Below, in pieces: positions 4,250 to 5,250 of a stretch of 6,893 nt of DNA. A program made the translations under genes and the position numbers. How positions within the stretch are numbered: position 1 is the stretch's first letter; each line of letters opens with the position of its first letter. This DNA comes from Methanobrevibacter sp. Its GTDB lineage: Archaea > Methanobacteriota > Methanobacteria > Methanobacteriales > Methanobacteriaceae. The notes under the pieces were generated by a model. The model saw only the letters and a program-made list of their open reading frames with translations. It did not search any database and was not told where the DNA came from. The stretch spans positions 1 through 6,893 of the forward strand of contig JAGCBE010000007.1 of assembly GCA_017652345.1 (NCBI GenBank), in the 5' to 3' direction.

Positions 4250-4304
4250 ATAGGCATAAATTGAAATTATTATGGATAGTTAAGTAAAATTTAAATGTGC
4301 CTAT
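4250..4304 (+). repeat. Inverted repeat ATAGGCA/TGCCTAT before the Connectase-like start
   Basis: Arms ATAGGCA (4250-4256) and TGCCTAT (4298-4304) are exact complements and extend by a U-G and an A-U pair in RNA, giving a possible 9-bp stem around a 37-nt loop. The arms are among the few G+C-containing stretches of this spacer. The right arm ends 19 bases before the ATG at 4324. It may be a leader structure or a binding site. Confidence 0.35.
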
Positions 4305-4323
4305 GTTTAAGCGATGTGAGAGT

Positions 4324-5250
4324 ATGAGTTTAATTATTGCTTATGTTGGAAAGAAAGGATGTGTAATGGCAGGAGATAAGAGAAGAATTGCCTATTTTGG
4401 TTCTAAAGAGGAACGTGAGCTTTTAGAACAGGAAATTTACACTGGTGAAATCACTAATGATGAAGAATTGTATGCAAGAGCTGAAGAGCTTGATATAAGT
4501 TTGAAAATAACTGATGATGCAACTAAAGTAAAAAGCTTAGAAAATGTAGCAGTCGGTGAAGTCAGTTCAAGAGGAACTATGGAAACCAAAAGAAAAAGAA
4601 TCTATGGTACAACCAATGGTTTCCAGATCATTGAACTTACCGGTTCTGAGATTGTAAACAGAAAAAGAGGAGACTCTTCCATTATTGTATTTGGAAATAA
4701 GATTACAAAATCATTAGCTAATGAAATGCTTAAGAAAAGATGGAAACCAAGCTTTAGCTTAAAGTATATGGGAGATATCTTCGGACAAATCTTAGATGAT
4801 ATTTCTAAAAAGACCCCTTCTGTAGGCACTAAATATGATGTAGTTATCCAACAGAATGATTTGTATATTGATAAGGTCCAACCTTATTTGGATGAAGTCA
4901 TTGAAATGGATATAAATCTTTTAGCAAAGTTCAGAGCTAAACTTAGAGAAGACTTATTGCAACAGAATGAAACAATTAAATTGGCTTCCACAATTATCGA
5001 TGAAGGTCCTGTAGGAATTGTTGACTCAATTGATGATAAGATGATTCAAGTAAAATTAAACCCTGATGTAAGGGCATTTGACATCAATTGGAAACTTCTT
5101 GCAAAGCCTGGTGAAAATGTTATCATGTTTGTTGAAGGTGACGATGAGGCATTATTGAAGGACCAAGTTGTAATTGAAAATGAAGTTTTATGCATTAAAC
5201 GTAATAAGGCTAATTTAAAATGTGATATCATTTTATGTCATCTTGAATAA
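4324..5250 (+). CDS. Connectase family protein (DUF2121), proteasome-beta-like N-terminal nucleophile ligase homologue
   Basis: Recognised by resemblance to Connectase of Methanocaldococcus jannaschii (MJ0548), a proteasome-beta-related protein ligase acting on a KDPGA motif of methyltransferase subunit MtrA through an acyl intermediate on its N-terminal Thr. From the ATG at 4324 the protein has 308 residues. After Met removal it begins SLIIAYVGKKG with Ser1 as probable nucleophile, then AGD with Asp17 in the place of the proteasome's Asp17, and GEVSS at 77-81. The Ntn-like domain spans about residues 1-190; a helical linker (about 195-220) leads to a small beta-rich C-terminal domain (about 222-307). 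The open frame extends up to GTG at 4297, but that start adds nine residues, lacks a ribosome site and would bury Ser1. The ATG at 4324 follows GTGAG (4316-4320), a weak but better ribosome site. Family membership is strong; the ligase activity, substrate and Ser nucleophile are inferred. A 46-bp gap leads to the hydrolase gene downstream. Confidence 0.87.
   Translation: MSLIIAYVGKKGCVMAGDKRRIAYFGSKEERELLEQEIYTGEITNDEELYARAEELDISLKITDDATKVKSLENVAVGEVSSRGTMETKRKRIYGTTNGFQIIELTGSEIVNRKRGDSSIIVFGNKITKSLANEMLKKRWKPSFSLKYMGDIFGQILDDISKKTPSVGTKYDVVIQQNDLYIDKVQPYLDEVIEMDINLLAKFRAKLREDLLQQNETIKLASTIIDEGPVGIVDSIDDKMIQVKLNPDVRAFDINWKLLAKPGENVIMFVEGDDEALLKDQVVIENEVLCIKRNKANLKCDIILCHLE

Follow-up and report, generated by a model that had tools for sequence, protein, structure and literature searches.

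What kind of enzyme is encoded between positions 4324 and 5250 (+ strand) of the window, by which we mean the whole 6,893-nucleotide stretch of Methanobrevibacter DNA analysed here, and is there anything exceptional about its N-terminus? An earlier note had described the product as a connectase homologue in which Ser replaces the usual Thr as the predicted N-terminal nucleophile. Connectases are archaeal enzymes that cleave proteins and join them again. The class is right, but the claim of novelty has to be turned round, since the protein is typical of an enzyme family already known. We infer that it is very probably an ordinary Ser1-type connectase of a rumen or gut Methanobrevibacter (olleyae-like), which, once its Met had been removed, would be active in cutting and religating its likely substrate, MtrA, at a KDPGA motif. 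MtrA is the subunit of the Mtr methyltransferase that carries the corrinoid.

The 308-residue protein is assigned to the connectase (MJ0548/DUF2121) family by Pfam, by sequence matches in the PDB, by alignment and by a structural model. The profile search placed it within DUF2121/Connectase, as the earlier note had supposed: residues 1–197 (4324–4914, +), which by Pfam and model make up an N-terminal proteasome-beta-like (Ntn) ligase domain, match positions 1–195 of the 196 in MJ0548_N (PF09894; 1.4e-76, 256.9 bits against a cut-off of 26.8), and residues 202–305 (4927–5238, +), modelled as strands following a long helix, correspond to the C-terminal domain MJ0548_C (PF25274; 2.2e-28). As sequence matches, these are not due to chance. 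In the PDB, every sequence match with an E value of 1.6e-33 or lower is a connectase (6zvz, 6zw0, 8jtu and 8wkd; the other row has E 0.78), and an AlphaFold2 model made from an alignment of 25 diverse members (alignment A2; mean pLDDT 91.5, pTM 0.70) finds its best PDB match in 6zvz_C (E 6.6e-26, TM 0.84/0.88); by the Pfam matches and the model it is a full-length connectase. In the predicted structure two helices (28–40 and 46–55) are inserted after the third strand, and the first helix pair of the proteasome is missing; read from this model, the insertion between strands 3 and 4 is the signature by which connectases have been defined (PMC8665760). Asp18 (residue 17 of the mature protein, within M-A-G-D), Lys68 and Glu79 are invariant across the 25 members of A2, and on the strength of this invariance Lys68 is the probable equivalent of Lys33. 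Translation and alignment confirm all three of the features that the earlier note had picked out, namely Met-Ser-Leu (codons ATG AGT TTA, at the head of the N-terminus MSLIIAYVGKKGCVMAGDKRR), GEVSS (G78-E79-V80-S-S) and an Asp that is residue 17 of the mature chain. The protein has the connectase combination of Met followed by a Ser or Thr nucleophile, Asp17 and a conserved Lys, the last placed by its invariance.

The top name-bearing homologues are Methanobrevibacter proteins. The nearest named locus (L001, 99%) is from a Methanobrevibacter metagenome-assembled genome (MAG) of goat jejunum, and the DUF2121 protein of M. olleyae (P0011; 87% identity over the full length, with the same MSL start) differs only at the level of species. 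The connectase MJ0548 of M. jannaschii (6zvz, 6zw0) shares the two-domain architecture, Ser1, Asp17, the conserved Lys and GEV, although its sequence of 293 residues has diverged (36% identity in the alignment), and the MtrA proteins of its group continue beyond KDPGA with other residues than those in the window's group. Methanosarcina mazei connectase (8jtu, 8wkd) has the N-terminal ligase domain in common (36–38% identity), but begins with Thr1 and is a 192-residue chain lacking the C-terminal domain; this domain is missing from Methanosarcina-type loci, whose proteins stop near residue 193–197. The proteasome beta subunit, HslV and Anbu share the core of the Ntn fold (best structural match E 5.5e-4), but are oligomeric and are described as having no connectase insertion (PMC8665760).

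Whether Ser would become N-terminal depends on where translation begins. The frame is also open from a GTG at 4297, nine codons 5' of ATG 4324, and a start there would leave Ser internal, making the protein no N-terminal nucleophile enzyme; among the best 120 of 982 homologues, 15 are indeed drawn with a longer N-terminus or from another start. On the other hand, Met at the position of ATG 4324 is the start in 100 of the same 120, loci from other clades begin at the equivalent Met, and none of the 15 bases preceding the ATG (AAGCGATGTGAGAGT) varies between the window and the ten first-ranked loci L001–L010. These bases belong to a conserved leader (4307–4323, +) in which GTGA is a likely ribosome-binding site, and 5' of which the DNA diverges, with insertions and deletions. 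Because the leader is unchanged where the DNA upstream of it varies, and because most homologues and the other clades share the Met, we take ATG 4324 as the better start; the conserved leader led us to reject GTG 4297, and an internal Ser is scarcely credible. Given the sequence Met-Ser, the Met would be expected to be removed by methionine aminopeptidase, exposing Ser1.

Two observations on the starts of related genes may be added. Amid diverging flanks, nine of the loci L001–L010 carry the full 17-base leader (TTAAGCGATGTGAGAGT) without any change, and the tenth, L008, departs from it at one base. An apparent ATT (AUU) start was seen in eight of the 123 Methanobacteria starts read (L363, L367, L378, L383, L387, L403, L412 and L446), and the named loci L035, L043 and L063 also appear to begin in this way; the layout is a strong ribosome-binding site, mostly GGTGAT, then four to five bases and ATT-AGT (an Ile codon followed by Ser1). 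At several of these loci the nearest alternative start is a GTG within the binding site, and L383 has an upstream ATG as well.

How unusual, then, is Ser1? The belief that M. jannaschii connectase uses Thr1 was mistaken, as the 6zvz sequence reads MSLII, and locus L110, whose translation agrees with 6zvz over 272 of 273 residues (it differs at the start codon and nowhere else), reads GTG-AGT, again giving Ser; there is thus no departure from MJ0548. It is the M. mazei enzyme that has Thr1 (PMC10154401, PMC11745163). Across the family, 185 of the 220 N-termini read have Ser, 34 have Thr and one has Val, which disposes of Ser as an exceptional nucleophile and of the notion that Ser is rare and Thr the rule. 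Every one of the 115 readable starts among the best 120 of 982 homologues has Ser, and the named loci have 72 Ser and 7 Thr (79 of 80 read; L054, which starts at a contig edge, is omitted). Whole-genome searches found the N-terminal domain in 122 of 151 Methanobacteria genomes, 33 of 36 Methanococci and 64 of the 392 Halobacteriota drawn (63 above cut-off), these group names, borrowed from the named loci, standing for the phyla of L001, L074 and L076, respectively. The N-termini comprise 121 Ser, one Thr and one Val in Methanobacteria (123 read, two unread, four fragment matches omitted), 27 Ser and six Thr in Methanococci (33 read), and 37 Ser and 27 Thr in Halobacteriota (64 read, two matches below cut-off omitted); within the Methanocaldococcus family alone, seven of 13 have Ser and six Thr. 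A tree of 93 representatives, drawn from 172 sequences and made with the trait column excluded by a quick method that gave long-branch warnings, shows at least seven changes of the state at position 1 (Ser, Thr or the one Val). These repeated changes, and the mixture in the Methanocaldococcus family, suggest that the two residues have been exchanged in a nearly neutral way. The flagged oddity is therefore settled, Ser-type connectases being the rule and the earliest released connectase structures (2021) being of this type; what stands of the original interpretation is the connectase class and the prediction of Ser1 as nucleophile, and the unusual status of Ser falls, along with the chemical contrast considered next.

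In the proposed mechanism, the freed Ser1, aided by Asp17 and the conserved Lys, would attack the Asp-Pro bond of KDPGA in the MtrA linker. A brief side-chain ester would give way to an amide bond with the N-terminal amino group of the enzyme itself, and the step would be reversed by the same or a different PGA... fragment; reacting reversibly with such fragments, the enzyme would therefore cut and religate rather than hydrolyse. The covalent intermediate reported for the Thr1 enzyme of M. mazei is an amide with the N-terminal amino group (PMC10154401). If, as we suppose, this chemistry applies to the Ser enzyme, any side-chain ester is at most transient, and the earlier opposition of a Ser ester to a Thr ester does not hold as written, the reported intermediate being no lasting ester.

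In other Ntn-hydrolases the choice between Ser and Thr alters kinetics, and the MtrA recognition tags are not the same in Methanobacteria and Methanosarcina. Might Ser1 set the enzyme apart in function, so that it hydrolyses more, or accepts a different range of substrates, than the Thr1 enzymes do, as had been suggested? With Ser the majority state, the state changing repeatedly on the tree (long-branch warnings notwithstanding) and both residues occurring within the Methanocaldococcus family, this is improbable. A still smaller chance attaches to the idea that the protein chiefly binds MtrA, as a chaperone or assembly factor, its ligase activity being incidental in vivo: one relative genome has retained, at full length, a tandem copy in which Val occupies position 1 and Arg takes the place of the Lys, but a Ser or Thr nucleophile is present in 219 of the 220 N-termini read. 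We prefer to regard the protein as a cut-and-religate enzyme. The tandem pair just mentioned (L068:2414-3322 and L068:3458-4378) is from a Methanobrevibacter MAG with the isolate name Lapin (probably rabbit); its first copy has Thr1 and keeps the Lys, and its second, to judge from the altered residues, is a probable pseudoenzyme.

Is a suitable MtrA to hand? Membrane-type MtrA with KDPGA was found in L081 and L082, whose genomes have connectases 93% and 94% identical to that of the window, so the likely substrate would seem to be present nearby; the linker regions of near relatives read KDPGAFEEDAMVIEV in the membrane form and KDPGALEEDALVIDL in the soluble form discussed below. From the genomes of L001 (99%), L002 (98%) and L004 (96%) the soluble form alone was recovered, perhaps because these MAGs are incomplete. 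With membrane type assigned on a crude hydropathy threshold, KDPGA is present in each of the 37 membrane-type rows from genomes that have connectase (one gene was read twice). Of 26 such rows from genomes without detected connectase, nine keep it. The other 17 all fall within one block of 18 rows (L185–L202, from genomes among G130–G148), which includes an MtrA (L197) identical to that of Candidatus Methanosphaera massiliense. Among the 84 proteins closest to L197, those with organism names are all from Methanosphaera and KDPGA occurs in five of the 80 readable; in the next 36 it occurs in 32 of 34 readable. In these Methanosphaera genomes, which lack connectase, the Lys of the motif has mostly gone (NDPGA, NDPGC, EDPEV and others; 17 of 18 rows, 75 of 80 readable), and in Methanosphaera the enzyme and the Lys of its motif appear to have disappeared together, probably in one event.

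Eight further Methanobacteria genomes without detected connectase keep KDPGA, and are perhaps incomplete MAGs. Among the 30 best-scoring MtrA loci of Halobacteriota, KDPGA is present in all ten readable cases with connectase (12 loci), and in at least one copy in 11 of the 16 readable cases without it (18 loci), the remainder having RDPGA (four) or KDPDA (one). The proposition that KDPGA marks connectase-bearing genomes thus held for Methanosphaera and failed in Halobacteriota, and, since many methanogens lacking connectase keep the motif, its presence alone is no proof that an MtrA is a substrate. Conservation of the tag is likewise ambiguous, because in structures the stretch of MtrA that follows the B12 domain turns back and packs on that domain (PMC4915002), which could keep the segment following the motif conserved without connectase.

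Many Methanobacteria possess extra, soluble copies of MtrA. Cytoplasmic MtrA homologues (PMC4915002) and the mtrA2 of M. ruminantium (PMC5816558) were already known. In 50 such copies from Methanobacteria, picked from short open frames (two of them from genomes without detected connectase; six Methanosarcina paralogues without the motif and two gene fragments were excluded), the site reads KDPGA in 41, KDSGA in five, HDSGA in two, RDPGA in one and KDTGA in one; the next 13 or so residues show fair conservation, past which the tail drifts. The M. mazei enzyme is reported to ligate moderately to highly with Ser at the Pro position, but not with Thr there (PMC11961121). The soluble paralogues that combine the connectase site with a diverged tail and no anchor are L086, L088, L090, L092, L096–L098, L103, L104 and L203–L243; some of them have KDSGA, and in some of their genomes the corrinoid domain is almost identical to that of the membrane form. 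Within-genome comparison of the soluble and membrane catalytic domains (15 pairs) gave 0 to 51 differences in about 143 residues. Six pairs differ at no more than five residues across 22 to 63 base differences, so their base changes are mostly synonymous; MAG G003, an apparent mixture of two genomes, supplied one of these pairs. In the 20 residues past the tag, the two forms have only 0 to 4 in common in the 15 pairs.

Retention of the site and near-identity of the domains are what an exchange between soluble and anchored forms would need. It is therefore conceivable, though we think it unlikely, that in Methanobacteria connectase exchanges nearly identical MtrA corrinoid domains in vivo between a membrane-anchored tail and the anchorless tails of soluble copies encoded elsewhere, at the shared KD|PGA site; such exchange would replace damaged corrinoid domains or tune the amount of MtrA that the Mtr pump holds by its anchor. 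The identity of the domains is accounted for equally well by strong purifying selection on MtrA, since between close species the membrane forms resemble each other to the same degree. One paper suggests, in a single sentence, that connectase helps to repair the Mtr complex (PMC12774963), and the exchange idea is not stated in the titles and abstract openings of the connectase and MtrA literature matches listed; a literature search on DUF2121 and MJ0548 gave no match. The soluble copies that keep the cleavage site nevertheless provide a concrete candidate second substrate in rumen methanogens, and the Ser-type enzymes of mesophilic Methanobrevibacter may be useful as ligation tools that recognise another tag.

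Directly downstream of the connectase gene lies one for an MBL-fold hydrolase (PF12706; 5288–6202, +; its start is perhaps ATG 5297), RNase Z-like by family matches below cut-off. In 94 of 101 Methanobacteria loci (some genomes being counted twice) an MBL-fold gene lies 3' of connectase on the same strand, no more than 400 bases away, and it does so in none of 70 loci outside Methanobacteria, some with short flanks; given this distribution, the two genes probably form a lineage-specific operon, the pairing being seen in Methanobacteria only. A chorismate synthase gene follows downstream in the window. Upstream and divergent are genes for a desulfoferrodoxin, a small lipoprotein-like protein with no Pfam match and a Hef-associated-nuclease-like protein (329–2662, –; 735 bits, under the NCBIfam cut-off of 840), the N-terminal region of which weakly resembles the DnaJ zinc finger (27 bits, below cut-off).
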